NCBI GenBank assembly: GCA_003695915.1
Contig: RFGF01000108.1
Coordinates: 1 to 39,136, forward strand
Reading direction: 5' to 3'
DNA: 39,136 nt
From: Nitrospirota bacterium
GTDB taxonomy: Bacteria; Nitrospirota; Nitrospiria; Nitrospirales; UBA8639
The position numbers were made by a program, and so were the translations under genes. The stretch's first letter is position 1. Each line of letters begins with the position of its first letter. Shown in pieces: positions 1,081 to 36,458 of the stretch. The notes beneath the pieces are model-generated. The model had not been told where the DNA came from and did not search any database. It saw only the letters and a list, made by a program, of their open reading frames with translations.

Positions 1081-2742
1081 ATGAACTTTAAATTGGATAT
1101 TCCAGATGAGAAAAAGGGAACTATTCCCCTTACCCTAGAAGTCGGCCGATGCCTCTTCGTGGTTGGGCGAACTGGATCTGGCAAATCGGGCCTTTTGCAG
1201 AAACTCTTCAAGGATCATTCTTCGGCTGCACGTTGGATACCTGCTTATCGACAGATTTGGTTTGTATCGGGTTTAGTTTCGATCACACCCGGTCAAAAGG
1301 ACAATTTAGAAAAAACCATTGCTGGCTATAGCAAAAACAATGAAGAGGCCCGCTGGAGAGACTATTCTCCTTTTGATCGAGTACAGATCCCCATTTTTGA
1401 TCTTGCTGCAGCCGAGAATAGCCGAGCTCGCTCGATAGCCAAAGCTGTGGACGACAATGATCCAGAGAGACTTGAGCAATTAAAGCAAACACCCTCGCCC
1501 ATTCAACAAATCAATGAATTATTTCACTTGTCTAACATTCCCATATCCTTGAACATGCCCAAAGACGGGGAATTCCAGGCTGTCAGATCTCAAGGCGAAG
1601 CGTACGGCATTGAGCAGCTTTCCGATGGTGAACGCAATGCCTTGCTCATTGCTGCAACAGTTTTAACTGCACCAGGAGCAACTTTAATTCTCATTGATGA
1701 ACCGGAGCGCCATCTTCACAGATCGATTGCTTCGGCATTTCTTACCCAATTGCTCCAACAACGGCCAGATTGTGCCTTTATTATTTCGACACACGACCTT
1801 ATGCTCCCGCTCGATAATCCTTCTTCGCATGTCTTGATACTTCGCAATTGCCGGTTCCAGGGGAACGCTATCCACTCGTGGGAGGCGCATCTTTACCCCT
1901 CATCAACGAGCATCGATGAATCCTTGAAAAAGGACATTCTCGGAAGTCGGCAAACCATTCTTTTTGTCGAAGGGACCGAGCAAAGTCTTGATAAGGCCTT
2001 GTATGGATTGCTCTTTCCGAATGTCACGGTGATTCCTAAAGGAGGCTGCCGAGATGTTCAACATGCCGTTCAGGCTATTCGATCTTGCAGAGATCTGCAT
2101 TGGCTTCAGGTCTATGGCCTGATCGACAACGATTATCGCCCACCTGATGAATGTACAAAGCTACTTCAACAAGGGATTGTTACCACTCCTTATTATTCCG
2201 TTGAATCAATCTATTATCATTCAGAAATTTTAAAAAAGATTGCTGAACGCCAAGCCAAGGTCGATGGAAGAGATGCAGGGGGAAAACTTGAATCGGCAAA
2301 GAGAGAAGTCCTCCAAAAAGTATCTTATGAAAATCACAAGGAGCATCTTGTCAACCGTATTGTTGAAAAACGCGTTCGAGCACAATTCAACAGTTCTTCA
2401 CCCACCAAAGAACAACTTGCTAGCACAAAACCAATCACAATTTCGATCGATGTCCCAAGGATTCGTCAAGACGAAGATGAAAAATTGAAATTATTCATCG
2501 ACAACAATAGTTGGGAGGAGATTCTCGCGCGATATCCTGTCCGGGAAACACCAGCTCTTGATGCCATAGCAAAGGCATTAGGGTTTCAAAATCGTGCTCA
2601 TTATGAAGAGGCGGTGTTAACACTCCTAAAAGAAGATCATCAACTGATTGATTGTGTGAGAAAAGAATTTGGACTTTTATTTCAAGAAACCGTGCATAGT
2701 GCAGAGGCTCTGTCATTGCAACCAGTAAAACAATTAAACTGA
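1081..2742 (+). CDS. ABC-type ATPase with C-terminal TOPRIM-like domain (OLD/PARIS-like, putative phage defence)
   Basis: Residues 1-250 form an ABC/AAA ATPase. The Walker A is GRTGSGKS (29-36), an ABC signature-like LSDGE is at 180-184, the Walker B is TLILIDEPE (201-209) and the H-loop is STHD (236-239). After residue 290 comes a TOPRIM/DUF4435-like half. It has ILFVEGTE (Glu298), a GGC turn near 321-323 and LIDND (348-351), which supply the acidic residues of a possible metal site. The order ATPase then TOPRIM is that of OLD-family nucleases and of fused AriA-AriB proteins of PARIS defence systems. At 553 residues it is shorter than two separate PARIS subunits combined. The gene is visibly AT-richer and its codon use differs from nrdJ and polA, which suggests horizontal acquisition. 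No partner gene is adjacent. The exact family is uncertain, but the two-domain reading is well supported. Confidence 0.75.
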   Translation: MNFKLDIPDEKKGTIPLTLEVGRCLFVVGRTGSGKSGLLQKLFKDHSSAARWIPAYRQIWFVSGLVSITPGQKDNLEKTIAGYSKNNEEARWRDYSPFDRVQIPIFDLAAAENSRARSIAKAVDDNDPERLEQLKQTPSPIQQINELFHLSNIPISLNMPKDGEFQAVRSQGEAYGIEQLSDGERNALLIAATVLTAPGATLILIDEPERHLHRSIASAFLTQLLQQRPDCAFIISTHDLMLPLDNPSSHVLILRNCRFQGNAIHSWEAHLYPSSTSIDESLKKDILGSRQTILFVEGTEQSLDKALYGLLFPNVTVIPKGGCRDVQHAVQAIRSCRDLHWLQVYGLIDNDYRPPDECTKLLQQGIVTTPYYSVESIYYHSEILKKIAERQAKVDGRDAGGKLESAKREVLQKVSYENHKEHLVNRIVEKRVRAQFNSSSPTKEQLASTKPITISIDVPRIRQDEDEKLKLFIDNNSWEEILARYPVRETPALDAIAKALGFQNRAHYEEAVLTLLKEDHQLIDCVRKEFGLLFQETVHSAEALSLQPVKQLN

Positions 2743-2999: not shown

Positions 3000-3320
3000 A
3001 TGGGTTCAAAAATTTATGTTGGTGGATTGCCGTATTCTTCAACCGAGTCCGAGCTCGCTGAGCTGTTTTCGACGCACGGGACCGTCGAATCGGTGAATGT
3101 CATTACAGACAAGTACACCGGTCAATCGCGAGGCTTCGGCTTTGTGGAAATGTCCACCAAGGAAGAAGCGCAAGCCGCGATCGCTGCACTCAATGGTACA
3201 GAGTTGGGGGGGCGAACATTGACAGTGAATGAGGCTAGGCCTCAGGCTCCTCGTTCAAGCCAAGGTGGATTTGGCGGGGGTCGCTTTGGCGGCGGGAACA
3301 AGCGCCGAAGCCGGTTCTGA
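3000..3320 (+). CDS. RRM-type RNA-binding protein with glycine-rich tail
   Basis: This 106-residue protein has a single RNA recognition motif (about residues 3-80) followed by a Gly/Arg tail ending in RRSRF. The RNP2 motif is KIYVGGLP near the N-terminus and RNP1 is RGFGFVEM near residue 44. Both carry the aromatic residues that stack on RNA bases. The start at 3000 is chosen because AAGGAGG lies just upstream and the RNP2 strand follows immediately. A longer in-frame extension to 2820 has no family similarity. Proteins of this kind are common in cyanobacteria and some Proteobacteria and are often cold- or stress-induced; which RNA this one binds is unknown. A strong intrinsic terminator follows 30 bases downstream. 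The roughly 255-base gap upstream may hold a structured leader, with a short CCGC/GCGG stem around 2811-2837. Confidence 0.9.
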   Translation: MGSKIYVGGLPYSSTESELAELFSTHGTVESVNVITDKYTGQSRGFGFVEMSTKEEAQAAIAALNGTELGGRTLTVNEARPQAPRSSQGGFGGGRFGGGNKRRSRF

Positions 3321-6598: not shown

Positions 6599-9418
6599 TC
6601 AATGGGCCTCGGCCCAGGATCGCCCGATTCCGACGTCCACGACGAGGGGCACCGACAATGAAATGGCAGGAAGGGGTGCCGTTTCCATGATTTTCTTTAC
6701 GACGTCGGCAACATGCGCGACGGCATCTTCACGTACTTCCAGCAGCAGCTCATCATGGACGGTAAGCAGCAGCCGCGTATGTGGACTCAGACCATGCTGT
6801 TCCAAGGCTGGAGGCACGCGAATCATCGCCCGTTTCAGAATATCGGCCGCCGATCCCTGGATCGGGGCATTGATGGCTGCCCGTTCGGCAAAGCTGCGCC
6901 GAGCTGGATTTTTGTCATGGATTCCTTGAACGTAACATCGTCGACCGAACAATGTTTCGACATAGCCATGCTCGCGGCAAAACTGTTTGGCCCATTCCAT
7001 GTACCTTTGGATGCCGGGATATCGATCGAAATAGGCCTGGATATACTCCGCGGCCTCGCTTTGCTCTACACCCAACTGTCTCGCCAATCCAAAAGGACTG
7101 ATGCCGTAAATAATGCCGAAATTGATGGCCTTGGCCTTGCGGCGCAATGCCGCATCCAAGGCATCCGCTGGAACACCAAAAACCTGACTGGCCGTCAACG
7201 CATGAATGTCCATTCCCTCCCGAAAGGCCTGTTTCAGCCCTTCGACATCGGCGATGTGAGCGAGCAGACGCAATTCGATTTGCGAATAATCGAGCGACAC
7301 GAGAAGATGCCCAGGCTCTGCGACAAACGCCTGACGGATTTTTCGCCCTTCTTCGGTTCGAACGGGAATATTCTGCAAATTGGGATCCGTCGAAGCGAGT
7401 CGTCCCGTCGAGGCCGAGGCCATGGAAAACGAGGTATGGACACGACGAGTCCGAGGATGGATTTGCTGCATCAGCGCATCGGCATAGGTGCTTTTCAGTT
7501 TATCGAGGTGCCGCCATTCCAGCACGCGTGCCGGCAACTCATACCCCTGGATGGCCAATGATTCGAGAACGTCCGCGCTGGTCGCATAGGCGCCGGCTTT
7601 TCCTTTTTGTCCCCCAGCGATCCCCATTTCCTCAAAAAGAATGTCTCCCAGTTGCTTTGGCGATCCGATGTTAAAGGGGCGCCCCGCCAATCGATGGATG
7701 TCGGATTCCAAATTCGCCAATCGCTGGGCAAGATCGGCGCTCAATTGTTTCAGCTGCGCGAGATCGACGGCAATGCCATGCTGCTCCATAGCGGCCAGCA
7801 CGGGAATCAGCGGCCGCTCGAGCGTCTCGTAAACGGTCACCATGTGCTCTTTGACCAATCGAGGCTTGAGCACCCGATAAAGCCGCATCGTGATATCCGC
7901 ATCCTCCGCAGCATACCGCAAGGCTTTGTCTAACGGAACTTGCTCAAAGGGAATTTGCGTTTTGCCACTGCCAGCGACCTCTTTGTATGTGACCGTCGTA
8001 TAGCCCAAGTACAACTGCGCCAATTCGTCCAACCCATGCCCGTGTGCGCCCCCTTCCAAGACATAGGATAACAACATGGTGTCATCGACGGGTGCGAGTG
8101 TCAGTCCGTATTGAGCGAACACCACGGAGTCATATTTGATATTGTGACCGATTTTCAGGACAGACGGATCCGCGAATAAGGGGCGCAGGGCATCGAGCAC
8201 GAGATCGAGCGAAAGCTGGCGAACAGATATCTCCTCGCTCGATTGAGCAAATGGCAATGTATCCGGACGCATCCCGTTGGTATGAGCCAAAGGAATATAA
8301 CAGGCATGGAATGGTTCCACGCACAACGAGATGCCGACGAGCCGCGCTTGCATCTGATCCAGCGAGGTGGTTTCGGTATCCACGGCCACATATCCTGCCT
8401 CGGTTGCGCGTGCGATCCATTGCTCGAGCGCGGCCAGCGTCTGCACTAGTTCGTAGCGAAGCGTCGGTGTTTCGTGCTCGGAGGGATTCTTGGAATTAGG
8501 CTGAGAAAAGATGCCCGAGCAAGACCCGTTTTGAATCCGGGCCGCAATGGATTTGAATCCCTGTTCTTCCAAAAACGTCAGCAACGTCTTTTTATCGATG
8601 GGGCGCCGCACCAGTTGCTCGACCGGAACCGGAACGGGCACATCGGTTCGCAGGCGGATCAATTGCCGCGAAAGCCTTGCCGTATCGGCATGAGCCAACA
8701 GGGCCTCCCGGCGCTTGGCTTGTTTGATCTCCGAAGCCCGGGCCAGCAACGTCTCCATATCGCCATATTGCCGAATCAATTGGGCTGCCGTTTTGATACC
8801 GATCCCAGGTACACCGGGAATGTTGTCGCTCGTATCGCCAGCCAAGGCGAGCACATCGATCACTTTTTCCGGAGGAACGCCGAATTTCTCCTCGACTTCT
8901 CGAGGACCGATCCATCGATTTTTCAGGGGATCATACATCTGGACGCGATCGGAGACTAACTGCATCAGATCTTTATCCGACGATACAATGATCACGCTCG
9001 CACCCTTCTCCAACGCCTGCTGCGTATAGGTGGCAATGAGATCGTCCGCTTCATAGCCCTGAACTTCCAGACAATCGAGATTAAAGGCCTGCGTCGCCTC
9101 CCGCACCAACGGAAATTGAGGCACGAGTTCTTCAGGCAACTCCGGTCGATTCGCTTTGTATTGAGCGGAGAGTTCGTTGCGAAACGTCGTGCGGTCGGCA
9201 TCGAACAAGACCCCGATATATTCCGCCTGCATATCGGTGAGCAGCTTGATCATCATGTTGGTGAATCCGTAGACGGCGTTCACGGGCGTGCCATCCGACC
9301 GCGTGAGAAAGGGGATGGCGTGGAAAGCCCGAAAGATGAATCCGGACGCATCCACCAAATAGAGTCGTTGAATCTCGGATTCTGTCGTCGCGCGATCTGT
9401 CATCGATGCTTCAACCAC
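6599..9418 (-). CDS. polA: DNA polymerase I
   Basis: The 939-residue product has all three domains. Residues 1-300 are the 5'-nuclease, with YLVDASG near 20 and the acidic SSDKDLMQ near 146. Residues about 325-530 are the 3'-5' proofreading exonuclease, with intact DTET (347-350), GHNIKYD (424-430) and YAAEDAD. The rest is the family A polymerase: motif A DYSQIELR (710-717), motif B RRKAKAINFGIIYG (759-772) and motif C VHDE (887-890). The proofreading acids are all present, unlike in many thermophile homologues. A GTG start at 9418 is preferred because GAGAGG lies eight bases upstream. The ATG five codons later has no clear ribosome-binding site. It would fill gaps left by ExoIII, encoded just downstream, and by Nth, encoded elsewhere in the window. 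Confidence 0.97.
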   Translation of the reverse strand: MVEASMTDRATTESEIQRLYLVDASGFIFRAFHAIPFLTRSDGTPVNAVYGFTNMMIKLLTDMQAEYIGVLFDADRTTFRNELSAQYKANRPELPEELVPQFPLVREATQAFNLDCLEVQGYEADDLIATYTQQALEKGASVIIVSSDKDLMQLVSDRVQMYDPLKNRWIGPREVEEKFGVPPEKVIDVLALAGDTSDNIPGVPGIGIKTAAQLIRQYGDMETLLARASEIKQAKRREALLAHADTARLSRQLIRLRTDVPVPVPVEQLVRRPIDKKTLLTFLEEQGFKSIAARIQNGSCSGIFSQPNSKNPSEHETPTLRYELVQTLAALEQWIARATEAGYVAVDTETTSLDQMQARLVGISLCVEPFHACYIPLAHTNGMRPDTLPFAQSSEEISVRQLSLDLVLDALRPLFADPSVLKIGHNIKYDSVVFAQYGLTLAPVDDTMLLSYVLEGGAHGHGLDELAQLYLGYTTVTYKEVAGSGKTQIPFEQVPLDKALRYAAEDADITMRLYRVLKPRLVKEHMVTVYETLERPLIPVLAAMEQHGIAVDLAQLKQLSADLAQRLANLESDIHRLAGRPFNIGSPKQLGDILFEEMGIAGGQKGKAGAYATSADVLESLAIQGYELPARVLEWRHLDKLKSTYADALMQQIHPRTRRVHTSFSMASASTGRLASTDPNLQNIPVRTEEGRKIRQAFVAEPGHLLVSLDYSQIELRLLAHIADVEGLKQAFREGMDIHALTASQVFGVPADALDAALRRKAKAINFGIIYGISPFGLARQLGVEQSEAAEYIQAYFDRYPGIQRYMEWAKQFCREHGYVETLFGRRCYVQGIHDKNPARRSFAERAAINAPIQGSAADILKRAMIRVPPALEQHGLSPHTRLLLTVHDELLLEVREDAVAHVADVVKKIMETAPLPAISLSVPLVVDVGIGRSWAEAH

Positions 9419-9654
9419 TGGCCCAGCCTCTCGTTTCAGAAGAACAATCTACCTGATCATGGAAACGATGTCGATAGGAGCACTCTGTGAACGGCGAGAC
9501 GGTATTCTTTGAACTATAGCGCGCCAAAGCTAGTCACTTGGGAGAAGTCGGCACGTCGCCGCGGCATCACCCACGGTCATTCCCGAATCGACCATGTTCA
9601 ACAGAAACGAGCGGCGTGGGCTGACTCCGCAAGACGAGAGACGTCGATTAGAAT

Positions 9655-10089
9655 TTATCGAGGCGGGCGGGGATCGAGAAGCGAGTAGGAAATTGTACGT
9701 AGTTCATGAAGATTATACGGTTTCGCCAATACTGCTGATGCCCCAGAGCGATACGCATCTTCCTTCAACGTGCAGCTCAAATTTCCGGTAAGAAAAATAA
9801 TCGGAGGACTTGCGGTTGGAGATTTGAGAGTCAGCCGCTGTAAGAGTTCCAACCCTGTGACTCCCGGCATTTGATGATCGGTAATAACCAAATCAAAAGT
9901 ACCTCGATCGAGCCGGTCGAGAGCAGCCGTCCCATCTTCGGCTTCCTCACATTGAAACCCATCGGCTTCAAACAGCATGCGGAGCAATCCACGAGTCAAG
10001 GTATCGTCATCGATGATCAAGATCCGCTTTGCCTTCTCCATATCTTCATGCGCTGCACTGTTCGGTTGGCGAGAATGATTCCTACTCAT
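9655..10089 (-). CDS. Single-domain response regulator (receiver domain)
   Basis: The 144-residue protein is a lone CheY-like receiver. The acidic pair is Asp27-Asp28 in ILIIDDD. The phosphoacceptor is Asp71 in LVITDHQMPG, the switch Thr is in FLTGN (about 101) and the conserved Lys is in LAKPY (about 123). No DNA-binding or enzymatic output domain follows, so it probably acts by protein-protein contact or as a phosphorelay shuttle. The start at 10089 has GGAGC eight bases upstream. It gives a 16-residue polar lead before the domain; an internal Met at residue 17 is a weaker alternative. No histidine kinase gene lies nearby, so its partner is unknown. The stop falls 236 bases upstream of polA. 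Confidence 0.9.
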   Translation of the reverse strand: MSRNHSRQPNSAAHEDMEKAKRILIIDDDTLTRGLLRMLFEADGFQCEEAEDGTAALDRLDRGTFDLVITDHQMPGVTGLELLQRLTLKSPTASPPIIFLTGNLSCTLKEDAYRSGASAVLAKPYNLHELRTISYSLLDPRPPR

Positions 10090-10601
10090 TTTCTTGCTCC
10101 TTTATCTGTTCACCTTGGCAGCCATACCTTCCCTTTGTTCTCACGTTTGATAAGACGATCGCTGCTAACCCCCACCGCGTAGCGGCCCACCAGTAATGAG
10201 CTCCAGCGATTCACTTCAACGGGAGTTGCGCCAAATGACACACATGCCGCCAATAAGCCCAACGATGGTCACCACGACGATAACGATCAAATCCACTCCG
10301 GTCCGCAAACGACATTGGAAAAAGATCTCTGCAGGATATCCATGCAGGCCAGCAAAGTTCGGGCCATCACATATTCTCCTCCTCTTCACGGAAGTCTCCA
10401 TATCAACTTCTTGATTCTTCAAGACTTGTGTATCGTTCGTTTTTCCGATTCACAAAACAACCAGCCAACCTGCACTGAAAAGTGTGTATCCAACCGCATG
10501 ATCTTGTATCTTTTTCGATAACACCCTTGGGACCGCGCACTGCTTGAGAGCCCACCTGAATCCAGCCAATGGGCGCACGCCCTGTTCCAGCAACCGCTTG
10601 A
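10090..10601. other. Gene-poor 512-base interval between response regulator and FtsX permease
   Basis: Apart from the possible 61-residue membrane protein listed separately, I see no supported gene here. The plus-strand frames are low in recognisable content. The minus-strand frame running into the permease 3' end is a shadow. The promoter of the response regulator should lie in the first 100-150 bases (minus strand). No strong terminator hairpin was found for the permease gene. Confidence 0.5.
10216..10401 (-). CDS. Possible 61-residue single-pass membrane protein
   Basis: A short frame starting at an ATG at 10401 gives a basic N-terminal half (KRRR near residue 6) and a C-terminal hydrophobic helix, DLIVIVVVTIVGLIGGMCVIW, from about residue 37, before a basic end. 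An upstream TTG extends it by seven residues. The ribosome-binding region is weak (AAGAAG five bases before the ATG). It matches no family I know. The coherent charge/hydrophobic layout supports it being real. Weak initiation and an isolated position argue against. Confidence 0.3.
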   Translation of the reverse strand: METSVKRRRICDGPNFAGLHGYPAEIFFQCRLRTGVDLIVIVVVTIVGLIGGMCVIWRNSR

Positions 10602-13250
10602 TTATTCTTCTCGAAGGACGCGCAAAGGGGGAGGGGCCAACAACCGAAAAGTCCCTAAAAATCCCAGGACAAGGCCAAGGCACGCGGTCAGAGCGAAGGC
10701 AAGAGCCGCAATAGTTGTACTAAACGTCCATGGAATATCGAGGAAAACGCGGACGACGATCCACGACAGGCCGGTAGCCATGCCAATTCCGGCCAATCCT
10801 GCCAGTGCGCCCATGACAAAAAATTCTATGGCAAAAATGCGGAGCACTGTTCCCCGCGCGGCTCCCAGCACCTTGAGAACGGCCGCTTCAACCATTCGAC
10901 GATATCGAGTAGACGATAGCGCTGTGACCATCACTAACACTCCGTTGAGTAGGCAGAAAACCGCCAGCCCCTCTGCAGCCCAGGCTATACGCCGAATCAA
11001 CCCGATCACCTGCTGGAGCACGTCGCCGATTTTGATCGCGGTGACATTGGGAAGGGCCATGACCAACGCGCGTTGCAAGGATGCTTGCTGCTCCGGAGCG
11101 ACATACGCAGTCGCAAGATACGTCATAGGAGCCTTGGCGAGCGAACCAGGAGAAAGGATCATAAAGAAATTCGTATTCAACGATCCCCAGTCGACTGTTC
11201 GGAGGCTGGCGACCGTGGCAGATAGTGAAATCCCTTGCACATCGAAGGTCAACCTATCCCCGATCGTCACCCCCAAATGTTTCGCTGCTTTTTCTTCCAC
11301 TGAGACAAAGTGCCGCCCTAAATGCACAGAATCAACCGAACGCGTTGCCAGCTCTTTGTCCCACCATCTTCCTTGAACAATGGCATTCCCCTCAGGAAGC
11401 TCCGCGAGCGCTGTCAACACGTACTCTCTGGTCAAATACCACCGATCGCGCTTTTCTCGAGATTCAGGATCAATCGGTCGGCCGTTGATAGCCACCAATC
11501 TCGATCGAACCACCGGCGTCACTTGGAATTGCCCATCGACCACGTCATGGTCCGAGAGCATCCGCTCGAACTGTTCGCGTTGATCCGGTTGAATATCGAT
11601 GAAAAAGAAGGTGGGAGCCGTCGTCGGGATATGATCGATGAATGCCGCCACGAGCGCATGCTGGCTGAACATCATCCCGGTCATCGTCATGACGCCAATC
11701 CCGATTGCCACGATCGTTCCTGTGGTATAGCTTCCCGGCCGCGCTAAATTGTGCAGTGCGTTTCTGATCGCAAAGGATCTGGGCATTGGAAGACGGAGAA
11801 TCCCCTTGACTAGGCCGGTCGCGAGCAAGGCAAATATCCCCAGGGCAGCAACCATCGCGACGGCAAAACTTATCCCCAACATCCAGTCACTGGCCTGCCA
11901 CAAGTTCAACCCGACAAGGGTGATCCCTATGATCGCGCTCACGAGGAACCGTCGGCGATCTGCAAGCATCATGCTGAACCAACCGCCAATCGAGCGAGGG
12001 AGCAGGGATCGATCACCGACATTTGAGCATTCAATAGATCGGCGGAGTACGAGGGCCGGGGGAATGCTGCGGACGGCCAGCAATGGCCACAAAACCGAAG
12101 CCAGCGGACACAGAAGACCGATGGCCATGCCTTTGCCGAGAGAAGACCATGAGATGGTAAACGGCACCGGAAAAGACACGATCTCTTCTAAGAGCCCCGA
12201 CACACCGGCATATATCCCCATCCCCACGCCGAGCCCGACCGCGCTTCCTGCAGCACCGATCAAGGCACTGAGCAGGACAAAAATGAGGATTATCGTGCCG
12301 GAATCTGCGCCGAGCGTTTTAAGGATTGCGATATCCAACATTTTTCGAGTCAGGTGTCCATGGATCGTGCACGTAATGCCGATCCCTCCTATGACCAAGG
12401 ACGTCAATCCAATCAATCCCAAATATGTCGCCAGTTGATCTAAAAACCGACGGATTCTTGGGTGCGCATTTTGGTAGGTGACGATTCTGGCTCCCTCGGC
12501 CGCAAGCCGTGTTCTTAACTCTCGAACCAGTGAGTACACCGAACTGTCCGGAGGAATTCGCAACAAATATTTTTCACGTATCCGACTTCCTGGTCGAACC
12601 AATGCACTAGCCCGCAATGCTTCGTGCGAAATCAAGACGCGCGGTCCCAACCGAAATGCCGTCGCCATGCGATCCGGCTCTCGAACGAGAACGCCGGTAA
12701 TCTTTAACGCGGCCTGCCCCACCATAATGATCGCACCGACCTCGGCCTGAAAATGATAAAGCAGCGACTCCTCGACAAGCGCGCCAAAGCAGAGAGCCTC
12801 GCCGCACTCCGGCGACTGCCGAGCAAGCGCGCGTTGAAGAGACTGAGCCGGGCTCGCCACGATGGTTCCGATCAACGGGTAGTCTTCTGGAACCGCCTTG
12901 ACCTCGACCAATCGTGGCTGGTGCGCAATTGCTTCGATCGGCCCCGCTCTCTTCCCCAGAGTTGCCATTGCCACCAACTCCCTGACATGGATCACTTTGA
13001 CTCCATGGGCATTTAACGATGCCAAAAATCTGCGGCCAGCAGGTTGCAATGGATGGGAGAGTGTCACGGCAATATCCCCGCCTAAAAAACTTTTGGCATC
13101 ATGATGAATCGCTTGAGCGACGGTATCCGCAAGCTGATCGACCGCAACAACAGCCCCCACTCCCATGGCTACCGATACGAGAAAAAAGACAAACCGAGAC
13201 CAGTGTGCCCGGCATTCCCGCACAGCCATCTTCCAAACAAACGATGCCAT
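10602..13250 (-). CDS. ybbP: FtsX/MacB-family ABC transporter permease (YbbP-like)
   Basis: This 882-residue membrane protein is the permease partner of the ATPase encoded just upstream. It has an N-terminal membrane anchor (FVFFLVSVAMGVGAVVAV), a large extracytoplasmic MacB-like domain, and a first FtsX block with several helices from about residue 260 to 375. A central pair of helices, a second periplasmic domain and a C-terminal FtsX block (about 770-880) follow. Its size and double FtsX layout match YbbP-type permeases rather than LolC/E, which are about 400 residues. The family extrudes or extracts lipophilic molecules by a mechanotransmission mechanism. The ATG at 13250 lies 15 bases after the ATPase stop, so the two are cotranscribed. 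In E. coli the same pair sits beside tesA, as here. The substrate is unknown. Confidence 0.9.
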   Translation of the reverse strand: MASFVWKMAVRECRAHWSRFVFFLVSVAMGVGAVVAVDQLADTVAQAIHHDAKSFLGGDIAVTLSHPLQPAGRRFLASLNAHGVKVIHVRELVAMATLGKRAGPIEAIAHQPRLVEVKAVPEDYPLIGTIVASPAQSLQRALARQSPECGEALCFGALVEESLLYHFQAEVGAIIMVGQAALKITGVLVREPDRMATAFRLGPRVLISHEALRASALVRPGSRIREKYLLRIPPDSSVYSLVRELRTRLAAEGARIVTYQNAHPRIRRFLDQLATYLGLIGLTSLVIGGIGITCTIHGHLTRKMLDIAILKTLGADSGTIILIFVLLSALIGAAGSAVGLGVGMGIYAGVSGLLEEIVSFPVPFTISWSSLGKGMAIGLLCPLASVLWPLLAVRSIPPALVLRRSIECSNVGDRSLLPRSIGGWFSMMLADRRRFLVSAIIGITLVGLNLWQASDWMLGISFAVAMVAALGIFALLATGLVKGILRLPMPRSFAIRNALHNLARPGSYTTGTIVAIGIGVMTMTGMMFSQHALVAAFIDHIPTTAPTFFFIDIQPDQREQFERMLSDHDVVDGQFQVTPVVRSRLVAINGRPIDPESREKRDRWYLTREYVLTALAELPEGNAIVQGRWWDKELATRSVDSVHLGRHFVSVEEKAAKHLGVTIGDRLTFDVQGISLSATVASLRTVDWGSLNTNFFMILSPGSLAKAPMTYLATAYVAPEQQASLQRALVMALPNVTAIKIGDVLQQVIGLIRRIAWAAEGLAVFCLLNGVLVMVTALSSTRYRRMVEAAVLKVLGAARGTVLRIFAIEFFVMGALAGLAGIGMATGLSWIVVRVFLDIPWTFSTTIAALAFALTACLGLVLGFLGTFRLLAPPPLRVLREE

Positions 13251-16495: not shown

Positions 16496-17785
16496 TCACA
16501 GCCAGTTGACCCGCTCTGCCGGTCTGATATAGATCGGTTCTTCAACTTGCTGCCTGACGCATTCCTTGCCTGACTTATTGAATCCCAGAACGGTATCGTT
16601 ATACATCTCGAATTTGCGTCCGTGAATCTGGGTTTCAAAGACTTTGGGACCAGGAATAACATCATAGCGAAAGATAATCTGCTGACTTGCACGCCAAAGC
16701 TGTAACACGGCCAACAGCTCGCGGCTTGGTACCAGATATTTTTCGATAGCACTGTCCACACCAGGACCAAACATCTGGCGAATATATCCCCGCGGTGCCT
16801 GTCGCGGCGGAATATAATATCCGTTCGGTTCAGTGCCCCATTGCGGGTACAATGGCAAGGCGACCTGCTCAACTCTGATGGCATAATAGAGTGGATTCCA
16901 GCGATCTTCAGCCCAGAGACCATCGTCGCCAATTTTTACCAAACCTTGTAGACGAATCTTGCCCACGCACGCAGCCATACACCGTGTTTCCATCGGCTCG
17001 CCGCCAGTCAAAGGATCTTTTCCTTCGATACGTGGATAGCAAGCGATACATTTTTCTGTCACCCGTGTCGTGCCGCGATACATTGGTTTTTTGTATGGAC
17101 ATTGCTCCACGCATTTCTTGTAACCACGGCATCGATTCTGGTCGATCAAAACGATACCATCCTCAGGCCTCTTATAGATGGCTTTTCTTGGACATGCGGC
17201 CAAGCAACCCGGGTAGGTACAATGGTTGCAAATCCTCTGGAGGTAGAAGAAATACGTCTCATGCTCCGGAAGACTGCTTCCCGTCATTCTCCAAGGTTCT
17301 TCCTTCGTGAACCCGGTCTTATCAATCCCTTCAACAATGGCACGCATGGATGTGGCCGTATCTTCATAAATATTCACGAACCGCCATTCTTGGTCCGTCG
17401 GGATGTATCCGATCGCCGCCTGACCAATTTTGGCCCCAGCATCAAAGATGGTCATCCCTTCGAATACCCCATAAGGTGCATGGTGTTTCCTTCCGACACG
17501 AACGTTCCACACCTGGCCTCCGGGATTCACTTGCTCGATCAACTGGGTGATTTTAACATCATAGAACTGTGGATACCCTCCATAGGGTTTCGTCTCCACA
17601 TTGTTCCACCACATGTATTCTTGGCCTTTTGAAAAGAGCCAAGTGGACTTGTCCGCCATGGAACAGGTCTGACACGCCAAACATCGATTGATGTTGAACA
17701 CGAATGCAAACTGCCATTTGGGATGCCGCTCCTCATAGGGATACAGCATTTTCCGTCCTAATTGCCAATTATAAACTTCTGGCAT
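16496..17785 (-). CDS. nxrB: Nitrite oxidoreductase beta subunit (iron-sulfur electron-transfer protein)
   Basis: This 429-residue protein passes electrons from the molybdenum subunit to the respiratory chain through four iron-sulfur clusters. The Cys sets are visible. They are Cys35/38/41 in CLACQTC, Cys186/189/194/198 in CNHCTYPGCLAACP, Cys219/225/229 in CRGYKKCVEQCP, and Cys246/249 with Cys269/273. In the third set a Tyr (222) sits where a fourth Cys would be. NarH has Trp there and holds a [3Fe-4S] centre, so the same is expected here. There is no signal peptide, so it would be exported by hitchhiking on NxrA. The ATG has GGAGG six bases upstream. It follows nxrA by 95 bases. Length and sequence fit the Nitrospira type closely, and nxrB is the usual marker gene for that genus. 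Confidence 0.97.
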   Translation of the reverse strand: MPEVYNWQLGRKMLYPYEERHPKWQFAFVFNINRCLACQTCSMADKSTWLFSKGQEYMWWNNVETKPYGGYPQFYDVKITQLIEQVNPGGQVWNVRVGRKHHAPYGVFEGMTIFDAGAKIGQAAIGYIPTDQEWRFVNIYEDTATSMRAIVEGIDKTGFTKEEPWRMTGSSLPEHETYFFYLQRICNHCTYPGCLAACPRKAIYKRPEDGIVLIDQNRCRGYKKCVEQCPYKKPMYRGTTRVTEKCIACYPRIEGKDPLTGGEPMETRCMAACVGKIRLQGLVKIGDDGLWAEDRWNPLYYAIRVEQVALPLYPQWGTEPNGYYIPPRQAPRGYIRQMFGPGVDSAIEKYLVPSRELLAVLQLWRASQQIIFRYDVIPGPKVFETQIHGRKFEMYNDTVLGFNKSGKECVRQQVEEPIYIRPAERVNWL

Positions 17786-17880: not shown

Positions 17881-20800
17881 TTACACCTTGATCTTAATGT
17901 GATCACCTTTGAGCCATTTGATCATAAACTCATTTTCCTGACCTGGCGTAAACCCGGTCCGGACAGGCTCCCATGGACCACGGCCACCAATACCGCCGTC
18001 TTCCGCTTTCGTGATACGGATCAGACATTCCTTCGGTACTGTGTTGACCGCGTGGTTATCCACTTGGTACCCGAATTTAAACTTCCACGCCACCGCATGC
18101 TTGCCAGGCAGCGAGTCAAGCTGATGCATCGGCATCAACCAGTCACGCGTAAAGGACTGCTGCGCGCCATACCGGAAGTTCGATTGATATCCGGTATCCA
18201 TGGCGATCGCACGACCGTCAGGCCTCGTTTCATGGCCTTTCACCGACTTGGCCGTTGCGACATATGGCGCGTGCTTTGCCATAGTGACGTGGTACGGATA
18301 TGCCGGGTTATATTTGGCTCGAATCATCAACCGTGCGACTTTATAATAGGGATCGCTCGGTTTCCATCCACGATACGGCCGATCAACTGGGTTTCCATCG
18401 ACGTAAACATAGTCACCGTCGTTGATCCCTCGATCCTTGGCCGCTTGCGGGTTGATATGCAACTGGTGCTCGCCAACACCCGGCGTCCGTTTATCCATGC
18501 GGTACGGATCGCCGAAGTTGGACTCGTACATCTGTACCCAGTCGTTCACGGACCACTGACTGTGGACACGGTGTCGCGTTTTGGGAGTGACACAGTAGAA
18601 CTGATACCCCTTCTCCCACAAAGGATTGGAGTACCGTTTGATCTCCTGCCACGGCAATTTGATGTTTCGCACCGTCTTATCGTCATGGTGCTGCGCCGTG
18701 ATCGGAATTCCATAGTCATCCGGACGTACGTACGGGTTTGTGGTAAAGATCGCATTCGGCAGATACGGCGTGGCTTCCGTCCCTTCACGATGCGAAATGA
18801 AGTTTTCCCCGTACTCGATAGCTTCAGGCTCGATACGATAGTTCTCATATCGCCCAGTCCGCGTCCACATCGGCTTACTTTCGTTCGTCTCTTCCCAGAA
18901 CGGCTGACGCGGATACGTCCGGGTCAAAACCATCCATCCTTTTTCGGACTTCAGCATGGTATCCACGTTGTATCCGTACCCTGTGCAGCTCGCATCCAAC
19001 AACCGCTGGACGTAGACGTCAACACGATTGTCGTACACGAACTTGAAATAGTCGCGGAATCGACGATCACCCGTCATTTCCGTCAGCTTCGCCGCAACAC
19101 CAGCAACGGTGTCGAGATCGTTCCGAGTGTCGTACAACGGCCGAATGCCGCCTTTCCACACTTGGAACCAGGGATTAGACACTGTCGCCGTATGCTCAGG
19201 ATAGGTAAACTCCATCCACGTATTCACGCCGAAGGCTACGTCTGCGTGGTTCACGTCGGAGGTCATTTCCACATCCTGGGTGATGATGGTCTCAATGTGC
19301 GGATCAACGTTTTTCACCATGTCATAATGGTGCTTGGCGTTGTTCAACACGTTCACATTGGCGACCCATCGGAATTTGCTCGGCGTCGGCATGTGCGTTT
19401 TACCCGTGAACACCCGGCGTCCATATTTGGGCGTATTCACGATCAAGGCCGTATCACCATGGTTCCAGTAAGCAACCTCCTCACCATAGTAATAACCACG
19501 AACGTGAATTTCCTTTCCGTGGGCATTTGGATCGAGCGTGATCTTGAATGGATTTTCGCCGGTATGGGTTCCCAATCCTCCACCTGACCAAGGCGTGGAG
19601 TTCCAAATACCTGCCTTGTAGTTTCCAGCCCATGTATGCTGACCCGTTCCAAATTTCCCGACGTTCCCCGTGATGATCAACACCATCGCGGCGCCTCGAG
19701 CGACAATGGTCTGATGGAAGTAATGGTTGGTCCCTTCACCGTTATGGATCGCAGCAGGTTTAATGGTGCCGCTATCCCGGGCCCAACGAACAATCAGATC
19801 CTTCGGTGCACGGTTGATTTGGTGAACGGTATCCAAATCATAATCTTGGAAGTGGACTTGATACATCTGGAAGATCGGCATTACGTCGACTTCACGGCCA
19901 TTGAGCAGCTTCACACGATAGGTACCTGTCAAAGCTGCATCAATCCCGCTCTTTTTGAAATGCCAGCCGACCAACTCGCGGTGAATAGGCACAGCTTGAT
20001 TCTTGTTCAAGTCCCAAACCATAAATCCGCCAAGTCGTGCAATCACGGCAGGCGTCAACGTTTGGACCTTCCCCGAATAGGTATTGGAAAAGTCAGGGAA
20101 TTGGTAATCCTTGATCACCTCGCGCGGATCCAGATATTGCAGCGTATCGGTCCGCACCAAAATCGGCATATCCGTGTAGGCTTTGCAGAAGTCATGATCG
20201 TACATATTCTCATCGATGATGATCTTCATAGCCCCACAGAACAATGCCCCGTCTGTTTCCGGACGAACCGGAATCCAGTAATCCGCCCGATACGCGGTCG
20301 GGTTATATTCTGGCGTAATCACGACGAGCCGTGCGCCGCGCTCAATGGATTCCAGTTTCCAGTGGGCCTCCGGCATTTTGTTTTCGACAAAGTTCTTTCC
20401 CCAACTCGTATTGAGCTTGGAGAAGCGCATATCGTTCATATCAATGTCTGACGTCTGCACACCTGACCAGAACGGATGAGCAGGATTTTGGTCACCGTGC
20501 CAAGTATAGTTCGACCAGTACCGGCCGCCCTGCGCTTGGTGCGGTTTCACTTTTCGGACCCACGTATCGAGCAAGGCTCCGCAACCACCGTTCATTCTGG
20601 TGATCCCCATTTTCCCGATGACACCGAGGATGGGCATTCCAGCCCTGAACTTGAAGCACCGAATGGCCGATCCTTTGGTCATCTCGATCATTTCCGGTGG
20701 ATACCCTTGCTCACGCAACCGACGGGCACCGGCTTCCCCGCTATACCGCTTGGCGATGATGATCATCGCTTTGGCGATGTAGGTAAATGCGGTATCCCAT

Positions 20801-21318
20801 GAAACACGCAACATATCATCGAGATATCGCGCGTTGAATTTATATTTGGTCATCACCTGAGGCGTAAACTCTGGACTGCCATCGTCCATCCATTGCTTCC
20901 ATCCTCGACGCATCAACGGACCCTTCAGGCGGTACGGCCCGTATACCCGACGATGGAACGTGTAACCCTTCAAACACATCCGCGGGTTATGAGCAAACGT
21001 GCCTCGGTTGCCATACAGGTCTTCATAGGTCTGATGGTCGTAGTTTTGTTCGACCCGCATCACCACACCGTTTCGAACAAAGGCTCGAACCCGGCACGCA
21101 TGGGTGTCATTGGGCGAACACACCCAAGTAAACGAGGAGTCATATCGGTATTGATCGTGGTAAACACGCTCCCATGAGCGATCCGGATATTCCCCGAGAG
21201 GGTTACCGACTTCCACGACAGGCTGGAGAGCAGTCAGGGCCAATGCTTTATCGGCCAGCGCGACCGCCGCCACAGTACCTGCAGAAACCTTTAAAAATTG
21301 ACGCCTTGAAAGAAACAT
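17881..21318 (-). CDS. nxrA: Nitrite oxidoreductase alpha subunit (molybdopterin, Tat-exported)
   Basis: This 1,145-residue type II DMSO-reductase-family enzyme oxidises nitrite to nitrate at a bis-MGD molybdenum centre. The ATG at 21318 is chosen over a GTG three codons earlier because AGGAGG lies eight bases upstream. It opens with a twin-arginine signal, SRRQFLK then a hydrophobic stretch ending ALA, so the enzyme faces the periplasm. The FS0 cluster region reads Cys67-x3-Asp71-x3-Cys75, with Cys115 in MCLKG. Asp thus stands at one usual Cys position. Asp276 in WHGDQNP is the likely molybdenum ligand by analogy with NarG. The subunit pairs with NxrB encoded downstream. No gamma subunit or NarJ-like chaperone gene is adjacent. 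The leader is AT-rich with a possible sigma-54 element. Confidence 0.97.
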   Translation of the reverse strand: MFLSRRQFLKVSAGTVAAVALADKALALTALQPVVEVGNPLGEYPDRSWERVYHDQYRYDSSFTWVCSPNDTHACRVRAFVRNGVVMRVEQNYDHQTYEDLYGNRGTFAHNPRMCLKGYTFHRRVYGPYRLKGPLMRRGWKQWMDDGSPEFTPQVMTKYKFNARYLDDMLRVSWDTAFTYIAKAMIIIAKRYSGEAGARRLREQGYPPEMIEMTKGSAIRCFKFRAGMPILGVIGKMGITRMNGGCGALLDTWVRKVKPHQAQGGRYWSNYTWHGDQNPAHPFWSGVQTSDIDMNDMRFSKLNTSWGKNFVENKMPEAHWKLESIERGARLVVITPEYNPTAYRADYWIPVRPETDGALFCGAMKIIIDENMYDHDFCKAYTDMPILVRTDTLQYLDPREVIKDYQFPDFSNTYSGKVQTLTPAVIARLGGFMVWDLNKNQAVPIHRELVGWHFKKSGIDAALTGTYRVKLLNGREVDVMPIFQMYQVHFQDYDLDTVHQINRAPKDLIVRWARDSGTIKPAAIHNGEGTNHYFHQTIVARGAAMVLIITGNVGKFGTGQHTWAGNYKAGIWNSTPWSGGGLGTHTGENPFKITLDPNAHGKEIHVRGYYYGEEVAYWNHGDTALIVNTPKYGRRVFTGKTHMPTPSKFRWVANVNVLNNAKHHYDMVKNVDPHIETIITQDVEMTSDVNHADVAFGVNTWMEFTYPEHTATVSNPWFQVWKGGIRPLYDTRNDLDTVAGVAAKLTEMTGDRRFRDYFKFVYDNRVDVYVQRLLDASCTGYGYNVDTMLKSEKGWMVLTRTYPRQPFWEETNESKPMWTRTGRYENYRIEPEAIEYGENFISHREGTEATPYLPNAIFTTNPYVRPDDYGIPITAQHHDDKTVRNIKLPWQEIKRYSNPLWEKGYQFYCVTPKTRHRVHSQWSVNDWVQMYESNFGDPYRMDKRTPGVGEHQLHINPQAAKDRGINDGDYVYVDGNPVDRPYRGWKPSDPYYKVARLMIRAKYNPAYPYHVTMAKHAPYVATAKSVKGHETRPDGRAIAMDTGYQSNFRYGAQQSFTRDWLMPMHQLDSLPGKHAVAWKFKFGYQVDNHAVNTVPKECLIRITKAEDGGIGGRGPWEPVRTGFTPGQENEFMIKWLKGDHIKIKV

Positions 21319-21618
21319 TGCGTACACCTCCTAGATTAGAACCATAGATGGACCTTCATCATGCCATCTTTACCAAAAATAACCGCTTACAGTAGGCTCC
21401 CATCACCTCCTTAATTTTGATTTGGTTTACTTTGTTTCAAGCTCTAAACAGCAATACCTTCTAGAAAATGCTCGCTCAAATGTGATGCAAATTTTGATCC
21501 AGGCTATTTTTCTGTACAATATTGCGTTTAAGCTATTGATAAATATAAGAAAATAAAAAAATTTGTCTTTATTCGAAAATAAATAAAAGGTGAAGAATTG
21601 GTAACATATTAAAAAATC
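21319..21618. other. AT-rich nxrA leader and nth 3' flank
   Basis: This 300-base gap separates nxrA from the upstream nth gene on the same strand. The half nearest nth (about 21,520-21,618) is very AT-rich with A-tracts, which could serve as an UP element or bend. The half nearest nxrA holds a second AAGGAGGTG site (21404-21412, minus) directly before an ATG that opens a 14-codon frame ending at 21359. The spacing of two bases is too short for efficient use, so a leader peptide is only a possibility. Confidence 0.5.
21486..21502 (-). promoter_or_regulatory. Sigma-54-like GG-N10-GC element upstream of nxrA
   Basis: On the minus strand CTGG, eight bases, then TTGCA match the conserved cores of a -24/-12 promoter with exact spacing (GG, ten bases, GC). 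The CAC of the -24 box is poorly matched. Transcription would start near 21,474, giving a leader of about 155 bases. A good sigma-70 pair was not found in the same stretch. Activity is inferred. Confidence 0.35.
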
Positions 21619-22281
21619 TTATTTATATGCGTTAACTCCGATTCTGTAACACAGGTGCTCAATACAACAGCGTGAACACCATGGAGAAACGGGACGGCAA
21701 ATATATTGACCGAATGGAACGAGAAGATCGTTGAATTCTATCCAGTAACGAATTGGTAACTTCTGACGTAAGACAGCCTCCGTTTTATCAGGAGTTGGTG
21801 TATTCACATAACCCCAACGATTACAAATTCGATGAACATGGGTATCCACACAAATACCTGGCTTGCCATATCCTATCGTGACCACTAAATTAGCCGTTTT
21901 TCTTCCGACCCCCTTTAACTTGATCAGTTCCTCAATAGTAGAGGGAACGACTCCTCCATACCGGTGAAGTAGGTCCAAACAAATCCGCCGAATGTGCTTG
22001 GCTTTTGATCGATAAAATCCAACCGGATAAATGGCTTTTTGAAGTGTCGCCAAAGGAATTTTTGCCATCGTTTCCGGAGTTTGAGCTAGTTCAAATAACC
22101 GGCGCGCCGCAGAAGCCGTCGTCTGATCCTTTGTTCGAAGGCTCAACACACAAGCGATCAGAATTTTAAAAGGATCGTGAGTTTCGTTTGCAATAACCCC
22201 GACAACAGGAATGGGCCATTTTTTTCTTCTTCGCTCAATCTTGAGCAAACGAATAGCCTGATGAATCTCTTCATTGTTCAT
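21619..22281 (-). CDS. nth: Endonuclease III (DNA glycosylase/AP lyase)
   Basis: This 220-residue enzyme removes oxidised pyrimidines and cuts the abasic strand. The helix-hairpin-helix is LKGVGRKTANLVV, with catalytic Lys128. The catalytic Asp146 is in CVDTHVHR. The C-terminal [4Fe-4S] site is Cys195-x6-Cys202-x2-Cys205-x5-Cys211, the exact spacing of the family. Length is normal. It lies between rpsU (102 bases upstream, same strand) and the nxrA leader. Readthrough from rpsU is possible, since no clear hairpin separates them. Confidence 0.96.
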   Translation of the reverse strand: MNNEEIHQAIRLLKIERRRKKWPIPVVGVIANETHDPFKILIACVLSLRTKDQTTASAARRLFELAQTPETMAKIPLATLQKAIYPVGFYRSKAKHIRRICLDLLHRYGGVVPSTIEELIKLKGVGRKTANLVVTIGYGKPGICVDTHVHRICNRWGYVNTPTPDKTEAVLRQKLPIRYWIEFNDLLVPFGQYICRPVSPWCSRCCIEHLCYRIGVNAYK

Positions 22282-34248: not shown

Positions 34249-35343
34249 ATGTCGGATAGCGTGGCCGAACACATCGCTGCTCTACATGACGCCGATTGGG
34301 GGATCCGTGAAGACGCAGCGTTAGCCTTGGGGACCTTAGGGGATCCCCGAGGGATCTCCCCTCTCATTCAAGCCCTCAACGATTCCGATCGGGCCGTCCG
34401 CCAGGCTGCAATCTCGTCGTTAACGAAGCTCGGTCAGGCTGCCGTCGAGCCGCTGGGCATGGCCCTTGAAGATCCGAACCTCATCGTTCAAGAATCAGCC
34501 GCGTCGATTCTGGTTCATATCGCCGATCACCGCGTCGTTGACCCTTTGATGACCGCTTTGCTCAGCCCCAATTGGATCGTCCGTATGTATGCTGCCCAAG
34601 CCCTTGGACGCCTAACCGTTCCCCAAGCCATCGACACCTTGATCCTGCTACTCCAAGACAAGGTCAAGGCGGTTCGTGACGCAGCCATAACCGCGCTTCA
34701 AGCAATGCGGGAACAAGCCGTTCCGCGACTGCTCGACACACTGGCTCATCAGGACTGGTCCGTTCGGCTCCGCACGGTGGAAGCGCTGGCGATCTTGAAA
34801 CCCCGGACGGCTGTGCCCGCATTGCTCGATCGTCTCCACCAAGAACCCGACACCGCTGTTCGCCAAGACATCATTCGCGCCTTGGGTGAAATCGGCGATG
34901 CCAGTGCAGTCCGACCGCTACTTGCTTTGTTACACGATCCTCGCGTCAAAACGCAGGTTATCGACGCATTGGGCAAGCTCGGCGATCCAGCCCCGATTCC
35001 GGCATTGATCGACATCGTCCAAGATCTTACACCGCAAGATTATGAGGATCGGGTGTCCGCGTGCACGGATCGGCGGTACCAGGAAGAGCTTCCGGTTGCC
35101 ATTGCTGCCGTCCATGCACTCGCCAGACTCGGCGTTCCAGATACGCTTCCTGTTCTCATTCAGGCGTTGCGTCTCACGCCGATTCGATCGGAGGCCGCCA
35201 AGGCCTTGATCTTGTTCGGCAAGGCTGCTGTTCCTTCCTTGATTCAGATGTTGAAAACAGAACAGGATGAAAATATTCGCTATCATGTCAAAGAAACACT
35301 GGCCCAGCTTGGCTGGCGACCCGGTCAAATTCGACTTGCATAA
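34249..35343 (+). CDS. HEAT-repeat protein, 364 residues
   Basis: This protein is composed almost wholly of about ten HEAT/PBS-lyase-type repeats. Well-formed examples are IREDAALALGTLGDPRG (18-34) and VRQDIIRALGEIGDAS near 207. An insertion near 268-290 (QDYEDRVSACTDRRY) breaks the regular pattern, at a similar place to the insertion in the 461-residue paralogue. It ends with the cap LAQLGWRPGQ. There is no signal peptide. It is first of four consecutive HEAT genes on this strand. The next begins 14 bases after its stop. The start at 34249 gives MSDSVAEHI, similar to MSQSVQDWL of the 461-residue protein and MSDSDRISQ of the 255-residue one, which supports common origin. Confidence 0.85.
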   Translation: MSDSVAEHIAALHDADWGIREDAALALGTLGDPRGISPLIQALNDSDRAVRQAAISSLTKLGQAAVEPLGMALEDPNLIVQESAASILVHIADHRVVDPLMTALLSPNWIVRMYAAQALGRLTVPQAIDTLILLLQDKVKAVRDAAITALQAMREQAVPRLLDTLAHQDWSVRLRTVEALAILKPRTAVPALLDRLHQEPDTAVRQDIIRALGEIGDASAVRPLLALLHDPRVKTQVIDALGKLGDPAPIPALIDIVQDLTPQDYEDRVSACTDRRYQEELPVAIAAVHALARLGVPDTLPVLIQALRLTPIRSEAAKALILFGKAAVPSLIQMLKTEQDENIRYHVKETLAQLGWRPGQIRLA

Positions 35344-35357
35344 CATGCTAGAGTGCC

Positions 35358-36458
35358 ATGCCCAAAGAATCGCTCGAAACGCTCATTTCTGAACTCGATC
35401 ATGAAGAAGACTGGCGCCGAATGCGGGCCACGGCCGCATGCCTCAAAGGCGGCCCCAAGGCCGTGGATGGGCTCATGCGGGCCATCGCGACGGGGACGCC
35501 GCGCTTCAAGATCGAAGCCATTAAAATGTTAGCGCGTATTCGAGATCCCCGTTCAGGACCGTGTCTCGTTCGGCTCGTCACTGACGCCGACGACGCCGTC
35601 AGTCGCACCGCTTTGACCGCTTTAGCCCAAATGGCCGGCATCCTCGATGAAGAAACAGCTACCGCCCTCGTCGCCTTGCTCAGGGACGACCGTCATCGCG
35701 AGGCGGTGACGAACTTGCTAGGAGAAATTCCAACGTGTATCGGCCCGCTGACCGCTCTCCTCCAGGATCCTGAGGAATCCGTACGCGTGACAGCCGCGAC
35801 GATTCTCAATCACTTGCTCGATCCTCGATCGGCCGATGCGCTCGTCGATGCCATGGGAGACCTTGCGATCCGAGACATCGTCATGGATACGTTGAGAAAA
35901 CTGGGAGCGATTCGAGACCGCATCGATCAGATTATGGACGACCTTCGGAACGTCGAAGAACTCGAACTGCGTGAGGGCGCACGACAAGAAGCCGTCATTC
36001 GACTCCATCCCATTGGCCGTCCTGGCGTGGAAATCCTCATCGAATATCTGCACGACGAAGATTGGGTCGTTCGAGAAGCGGCTGCGGACGTGTTGGGAAA
36101 AATCGGTGACCTTCGGGCGGTCGAGCCACTCATGGAACGGCTTCGCAACGATCCCGACACGGGTGTGAAGGAATTGGCCACAAAATCGCTCGGACTGTTG
36201 GGCGATGCACGTCCGGTCGAATTGCTCATCGAAAGCATCCAATTTCGCCCTCTCCGCGTATTAGCCGTCGAAGCTTTGGAAAAAATCAAAGACGTGGAAG
36301 TCCTCCGGCCGTATGCTGATCTGTTCAAACAGCTCAAGACCGATCGTGACGGATTGGTGGCCTATAATTCAGGTGTCATTCTCGATAAACTCGCAGCCGC
36401 TGCTGCCCAGATGAAAATGCACGAAGAGGCATTGGCGGGGAAGGAACCTACGACGTGA
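35358..36458 (+). CDS. HEAT-repeat protein, 366 residues
   Basis: HEAT-like helical pairs fill most of this protein. They are more divergent in the N-terminal half (RMRATAACLKGGPKAVDGL near 21-39). The clearest repeat is VVREAAADVLGKIGDLRAVE near 236-255. A non-repeat linker, NVEELELREGARQEAV, sits near 198-213 and may divide two superhelical halves. Unlike its neighbours it lacks the terminal LGW cap and ends in a Lys/Ala-rich helix and KEPTT. It overlaps the next gene by four bases (GTGA), a strong sign of translational coupling. Its function is unknown; a scaffold role is inferred. Confidence 0.82.
   Translation: MPKESLETLISELDHEEDWRRMRATAACLKGGPKAVDGLMRAIATGTPRFKIEAIKMLARIRDPRSGPCLVRLVTDADDAVSRTALTALAQMAGILDEETATALVALLRDDRHREAVTNLLGEIPTCIGPLTALLQDPEESVRVTAATILNHLLDPRSADALVDAMGDLAIRDIVMDTLRKLGAIRDRIDQIMDDLRNVEELELREGARQEAVIRLHPIGRPGVEILIEYLHDEDWVVREAAADVLGKIGDLRAVEPLMERLRNDPDTGVKELATKSLGLLGDARPVELLIESIQFRPLRVLAVEALEKIKDVEVLRPYADLFKQLKTDRDGLVAYNSGVILDKLAAAAAQMKMHEEALAGKEPTT

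Follow-up and report, generated by a model that had tools for sequence, protein, structure and literature searches.

The gene at the beginning of the analyzed contig is a merged, single-gene PARIS gene that encodes AriA and AriB in one chain, a form that has been in print since 2022. The N-terminal half of the protein (approximately residues 1-270) forms an AriA/OLD-type ABC ATPase in which the nucleotide-binding motifs are intact, and the C-terminal half (approximately residues 285-546) is an AriB-like TOPRIM/DUF4435 domain in which the acidic residues are intact. By analogy with the PARIS system of E. coli, the protein is predicted to provide abortive-infection defense in a PARIS-like manner, which we consider its probable function. 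The gene is an ordinary member of a widespread family and was probably acquired horizontally. The window, that is, the whole stretch of DNA analyzed (39,136 nucleotides), coincides with the entire contig, and the 5' part of the upstream reductase gene is lost at the contig edge (Table 1).

Table 1. Coordinates of the merged ariAB gene, its neighbors and the motifs of its product in the window (conservation is given over the 95 rows of the family alignment)
Feature	Position	Strand	Remarks
Merged ariAB gene (single-gene PARIS)	1081..2742	+	intact ORF, ATG start, 553 aa
Upstream neighbor: B12-dependent ribonucleotide reductase gene, 3' part, cut by contig end	3..1001	+	
Downstream neighbor: RRM RNA-binding protein gene	3000..3320	+	
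Walker A, residues 29-36 (GRTGSGKS)	1165..1188	+	G29, G32, G34, K35 in 95/95; position 36 is S (86 rows) or T (9 rows)
ABC signature, residues 181-184 (SDGE)	1621..1632	+	S181, E184 in 95/95; D182 in 94/95
Walker B and catalytic Glu, residues 206-209 (DEPE)	1696..1707	+	D206, E209 in 95/95; E207 in 94/95
His238 of the ATPase	1792..1794	+	95/95
Stretch linking ATPase and TOPRIM (approximately residues 273-289), modeled with lower confidence and probably flexible	1897..1947	+	from pLDDT
TOPRIM/DUF4435 core, residues 291-398	1951..2274	+	
Glu297, catalytic-type TOPRIM glutamate	1969..1971	+	E in 95/95
TOPRIM DxD, Asp349 and Asp351	2125..2133	+	both 95/95
Helical C-terminal part of the AriB-like fold, residues 381-546	2221..2718	+	C-terminal model pLDDT 94.1

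Domain composition and family models

Both domains exceed their Pfam cut-offs (27 bits each), with scores of 47.1 bits for AAA_21 and 55.6 bits for DUF4435, the latter over residues 291-398; AAA_15 reached 20.7 bits, below its own cut-off. The fusion of an ABC-type ATPase with a TOPRIM/DUF4435-like domain, read by the first-pass annotation from a single compact gene with exactly this extent, is thus borne out, as is the likeness to merged AriA-AriB that it had proposed: the merged AriAB model of PADLOC (PDLC02982) gave 235.9 bits over residues 98-528, compared with 50.4 bits for the runner-up defense model among the best 25 of 85 PADLOC matches, and each half is matched by solved structures of PARIS subunits (see below). 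The GajA model, which represents the OLD family, gave 29.7 bits. The HMM search that the annotation had suggested as a check returned a significant DUF4435 match and, among the best 25 of 76 NCBIfam matches, no housekeeping family or other model near its cut-off. DUF4435 was matched by 93 of the 95 members of alignment A4 at an E-value of 0.01, and the source genome contains a single match to this domain.

According to Rousset et al. 2022 (PMC9122126), PARIS combines an AAA_15 or AAA_21 ATPase with DUF4435 and is encoded either by two genes or by a single-gene fusion. The 27-bit figures given there apply to the two-gene pairs, and the fusions were found with a dedicated HMM at a threshold of 20 for AAA_21+DUF4435; the PADLOC AriAB model was used here in place of that HMM. 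Like the merged PARIS proteins that this model represents, the window protein is a single chain with both domains, has a similar length (553 aa versus 570 model positions) and is encoded by a lone gene, and we found no feature by which it would differ in kind. Among the papers listed for PARIS together with Nitrospira, and for merged or fused AriAB, none concerned this gene in its title or the opening of its abstract.

Structural comparison and active-site residues

The sequence profile built from the 95 aligned sequences (A2; 94 relatives and the window protein) retrieved AriA first from the PDB (8ux9_B, E-value 2.1e-11; 8v45_A, E-value 2.2e-11); a smaller profile built before (A1, 9 sequences) had placed other ABC proteins ahead of AriA. 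From both A2 and A4, 9 of the 103 locus proteins (near-duplicates or shortened copies) were left out, and the relatives had been chosen via one or two conserved motifs, which favors this subfamily. The full-length structural model has a pLDDT of 92.3 and a pTM of 0.71, with the relative placement of the two halves being unsure. In its ATPase half, this model is about equally close to AriA (8v46_B, Z 15.0 over 237 residues; 8ux9_B, Z 14.8) and to the PtuA protein of a retron (9vhe_C, Z 15.4), so that the two are not told apart by the fold of the ATPase.

Modeled alone (270 residues, pLDDT 94.1), the nuclease half is most similar to AriB (8ux9_A, Z 10.2; 8v46_D, Z 10.0; 206 residues each), with the match spanning model residues 4-255, which correspond to protein residues 287-538. 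This match comes from a second comparison over the 1000 best chains of Foldseek itself; Foldseek with the C-terminal model produced no match under an E-value of 0.001, and the sequence profile of the C-terminal half matched no AriB chain in the PDB. OLD proteins come next (Z 7.3, 7.2, 7.2 and 6.8), over 167 residues compared to 206 for AriB, in line with the resemblance to OLD nucleases noted in the first-pass annotation, and are followed, apart from one designed protein (Z 6.3), by Gabija GajA (Z 6.2 and 6.0).

These comparisons bear on the strongest rival reading, namely, that of an OLD-like nuclease of class 1, a single-chain DNA cutter rather than a tRNase, that acts with no release of a subunit. 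Class 1 OLD proteins (6njv, 6nk8, 6p74) combine an ABC ATPase and a TOPRIM domain in the same order in one chain, their C-terminal folds are related to that of the window protein (Z 5.4-7.3), and a 2023 review (PMC10568477) is, in the section concerned, undecided on whether fused AriAB make up a separate OLD class or work in a mode unlike that of class 1 proteins. Nevertheless, AriB scores about 3 Z units higher and aligns over more residues, and the window protein differs from the OLD proteins by the AriB-type DUF4435 nuclease domain. The matches to DUF4435 and to the AriAB model are specific, and the GajA model reaches only 29.7 bits. We consider the OLD-like reading unlikely and regard OLD as a more distant cousin than PARIS.

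The assignment to merged PARIS is further supported by the active-site residues. There are 18 invariant columns in the alignment, including K35, S181, E184, D206, E209, H213 and H238 in the ATPase and E297, D304, G346, D349, D351 and E375 in the nuclease half; His238 is presumably the switch-type histidine of ABC ATPases. The same positions are retained in a separate set of eight plasmid homologs, except for a replacement of D206 by E in one of these. In the family-profile alignment, K39, S367 and E393 of AriA (numbers counted by hand) align with K35, S181 and E207, respectively, and E393 is the residue replaced in the AriA E393Q structure according to the PDB title of 8v49. Between the two domains, the mean pLDDT drops to 79 for residues 271-280 and to 60 for residues 281-290, and this probably flexible stretch is followed by a conserved LGxR motif (residues 287-290; G288 in 95 of the 95 rows, position 290 being R in 82 rows and K in the other 13).

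The TOPRIM glutamate, which the first-pass annotation had placed at position 298, turned out to be residue 297; residue 298 is a glycine. E. coli AriB is described in PMC12409363 as a two-metal tRNase that no longer cuts when E26 is replaced by alanine and in which lysines K60 and K64 are required for defense. E297 closes the first TOPRIM strand and, judged by this position, would be the counterpart of AriB E26. Counterparts of K60 and K64 could not be placed in the window protein; R334 lies at a distance from the glutamate that is similar to that of the AriB lysines, and this position is R or K in just 82 of the 95 rows.

The E. coli PARIS, a two-gene system (AriA 8ux9_B and 8v45; AriB 8ux9_A and 8v46_D), has ATPase motifs that align with those of the window protein, and the AriB fold is shared, but the two subunits are encoded by separate ariA and ariB genes, whereas here the nuclease belongs to a single chain from which it is not releasable. 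The second difference is the compactness of the ATPase. The distance from the Walker A lysine to the signature serine is 146 residues in the window protein, compared with 328 in E. coli AriA (8ux9_B) and 356 in the AriA from a two-gene pair of Paraburkholderia sabiae, the two two-gene AriA proteins compared. The resulting shortfall of about 180 residues relative to E. coli AriA rests on the profile alignment and the fold range rather than on a residue-by-residue map, and a three-row alignment with a two-gene pair was too divergent for use. Across the 95 rows, this spacing spans just 132 to 162 residues (145 in 71 rows), so the compact ATPase is a trait of this subfamily.

Distribution and genomic setting

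The gene is rare among the relatives of the source organism. Within the same order, a long match to the AriAB model was found in 1 of 59 genomes, the source genome itself, and ten other genomes contained short matches scoring at most 28.5 bits. In one of these ten, a genome of the same family (loci L004/L012, G027:C48:19774-20553), a 551-aa frame has weak matches to each half of the AriAB model (24.6 and 23.7 bits) and may encode a distant ATPase-TOPRIM relative. In the phylum sample, 4 of 395 genomes, the source genome included, match at 1e-10, with up to 3 candidates scored per genome among the matches listed. Of these four matches, only the window copy looks intact: the copy in G133 is split over two frames, that in G394 is a partial match with an internal stop, and that in G147 (L016, G147:C206) is an internally deleted remnant that retains residues 1-103 and 432-532 only. 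This remnant adjoins what look, by eye, like recA and a toxin-antitoxin pair. With the gene described here, an intact merged PARIS is added for a phylum in which such genes are rare in the sample searched.

Outside this sample, homologs were detected in 51 plasmid records and in one Oenococcus phage (two records, 74% covered); a profile scan of genome contigs matched 326 of 385 candidate stretches, of which the best 80 were taken, and 23 of 108 candidate stretches on viral contigs matched as well. A scan of the genome contigs with the single sequence found no relative. The closest relatives among the matches listed share 43-48% identity with the window protein. In a tree of the 95 rows, built by a quick method with no bootstrap, the phyla are intermixed, with 20 label changes (minimum 12, mean of shuffled labels 33.8), more than one label change being no proof of transfer. 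The tree leaves the window protein unplaced; by path length, the nearest sequence is a cyanobacterial copy (47% identity).

On the Paraburkholderia sabiae plasmid pPs24235_1 (L187, positions 7538-11813), a two-gene ATPase and DUF4435 pair is encoded directly upstream of a fused gene, so that both forms of PARIS adjoin. On two small E. coli plasmids (L021 and L022; 5.3 and 6.4 kb), the fused homolog is the largest annotated gene, and the 6.4 kb plasmid additionally carries a gene for a toxin of the ToxN/AbiQ family.

The neighborhoods of the homologs contain no conserved partner gene: in a survey of 2010 mechanically called open reading frames of at least 90 aa from 97 loci and the window (6 of the 103 loci, near-duplicates, omitted), the commonest neighbor family occurred in 4 of the 97 loci. 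Neighbors common to three loci each were seen in L108, L112 and L144 and in L090, L094 and L167; by eye, these look like type I restriction (HsdR-like) and tyrosine-integrase proteins.

In the window, the ariAB frame starts 79 bases after the end of the reductase gene and ends 257 bases before the RRM gene that starts at position 3000, and these neighbors agree with the earlier statement that no reverse transcriptase or second subunit adjoins the gene. The source genome, a draft assembly, comprises 135 contigs and has a contamination of 2.98%, which leaves a small chance that the contig is misplaced, although both flanking genes have their best matches in genomes of the same family. A second copy of the B12-dependent ribonucleotide reductase gene is found elsewhere in the same genome (G000:C87:1719-2417), with 89% identity over the first 233 residues of the window copy, the last 99 being unmatched.

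We compared this setting with 13 relatives, drawn from 30 genomes other than the source that have a reductase match; the same-order set included no genome of the same genus. In these relatives, stretches of 2.1 to 9.8 kb that follow the reductase gene on its downstream side contained neither ariAB nor the RRM, PGM, HAD and ExoIII genes of the window. Presence of the gene in a syntenic position, which the first-pass annotation had singled out as an argument against a defense role, was accordingly not observed in the relatives examined, and the comparison yielded no clean empty site. A search for flanking repeats as marks of insertion found short two-copy families only. The patchy spread and the lone gene fit a mobile defense gene.

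The base composition of the gene, as the first-pass annotation had pointed out, differs from that of most of its neighbors. With a GC content of 0.444 and a GC3 of 0.395, it ranks second-lowest among 24 non-overlapping open reading frames of at least 150 aa, picked greedily from the mechanically called frames of the window, 22 of which span GC values of 0.476-0.614. Because the endonuclease III-like gene at 21619-22281 is even lower (GC 0.434, GC3 0.376), AT-richness alone is not special in this window.

A second rival reading holds that the gene is a merged PARIS by descent but was brought in by a mobile element as a silent passenger and at present has no function in this host. The AT-richness relative to most of the window and the state of the other three matches among the phylum genomes (interrupted, internally deleted or partial) are compatible with this view, as is the result of the promoter scan, in which promoter-like sites were no commoner than in shuffled sequences (2 sites, both on the - strand and none on the + strand, versus 3.4 expected). 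The full-length frame, in which all catalytic positions are intact, argues against it, and we consider a silent passenger quite improbable, somewhat more so than an OLD-like nuclease. The scan for terminators found 4 terminator-like sites versus 2.7 expected, and searches of the window for Rfam families and tRNA genes produced no match. The source genome contains 4 matches to N6_Mtase, which would suit a PARIS host, although such genes are also present in 13 of 14 control genomes.

The last rival, in which the protein is an ABC ATPase with a housekeeping role or belongs to a retron or Septu system, can draw on the tie between AriA and PtuA in the ATPase fold and is nonetheless highly improbable, given that the nuclease half is TOPRIM/DUF4435 rather than HNH, the neighbors are the reductase and RRM genes, the best 25 of 76 NCBIfam matches include no model near its cut-off, and the gene is rare in relatives. 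We rejected a housekeeping ATPase on this NCBIfam result, and a retron, Septu or Gabija system because no reverse transcriptase, PtuB HNH nuclease or GajB helicase adjoins the gene: PtuA is accompanied by PtuB or a reverse transcriptase, and GajA, likewise an ATPase-TOPRIM chain, has GajB as its helicase partner.

Two other groups of genes in the window were noticed in passing. At 16496-17785 and 17881-21327 (- strand), adjacent genes encode two subunits of the type II DMSO-reductase kind, one with iron-sulfur character (429 aa) and one a large molybdopterin subunit (1148 aa), both below the NCBIfam cut-offs; the pair looks like nitrite oxidoreductase NxrB and NxrA, in agreement with Nitrospira. 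Three consecutive genes at 34249-37222 (+ strand) appear, by eye, to encode HEAT-repeat proteins.

Predicted mode of action

In the two-gene PARIS, a hexamer of AriA holds three AriB subunits, Ocr or other phage proteins bind AriA, and the released AriB dimerizes and cuts tRNA (PMC11455837 and the corresponding parts of PMC12409363). By extension from the E. coli system, the ATP-bound ATPase heads of the merged protein would assemble and keep the nuclease inactive. A phage protein, which in the case of E. coli PARIS is an anti-restriction protein such as Ocr, would then bind the ATPase and alter its shape, and the nuclease domains would pair and cut tRNA, so that translation and phage growth stop.

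Release of the nuclease is impossible in the merged protein because the nuclease is part of the same chain. The tethered nuclease might instead be freed by a hinge movement at the flexible stretch around residues 273-289, with two tethered nuclease domains meeting within or between assemblies. Given that the ATPase is about 180 residues shorter than E. coli AriA between Walker A and signature, trigger recognition and assembly may differ as well. We therefore tentatively suggest, as a scenario that we find less likely than not to hold in full, that the compact merged PARIS differs from the two-gene system in responding to other triggers and in being activated in place, through a rearrangement of the tethered nuclease, a mode between those of OLD and PARIS. 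If the compact, tethered form does work without release of the nuclease, this would settle the question posed in the relevant section of the 2023 review (PMC10568477), namely, whether fused AriAB are a separate class or act in a mode unlike that of OLD proteins. The alignment of 95 sequences pinpoints the residues for mutation.
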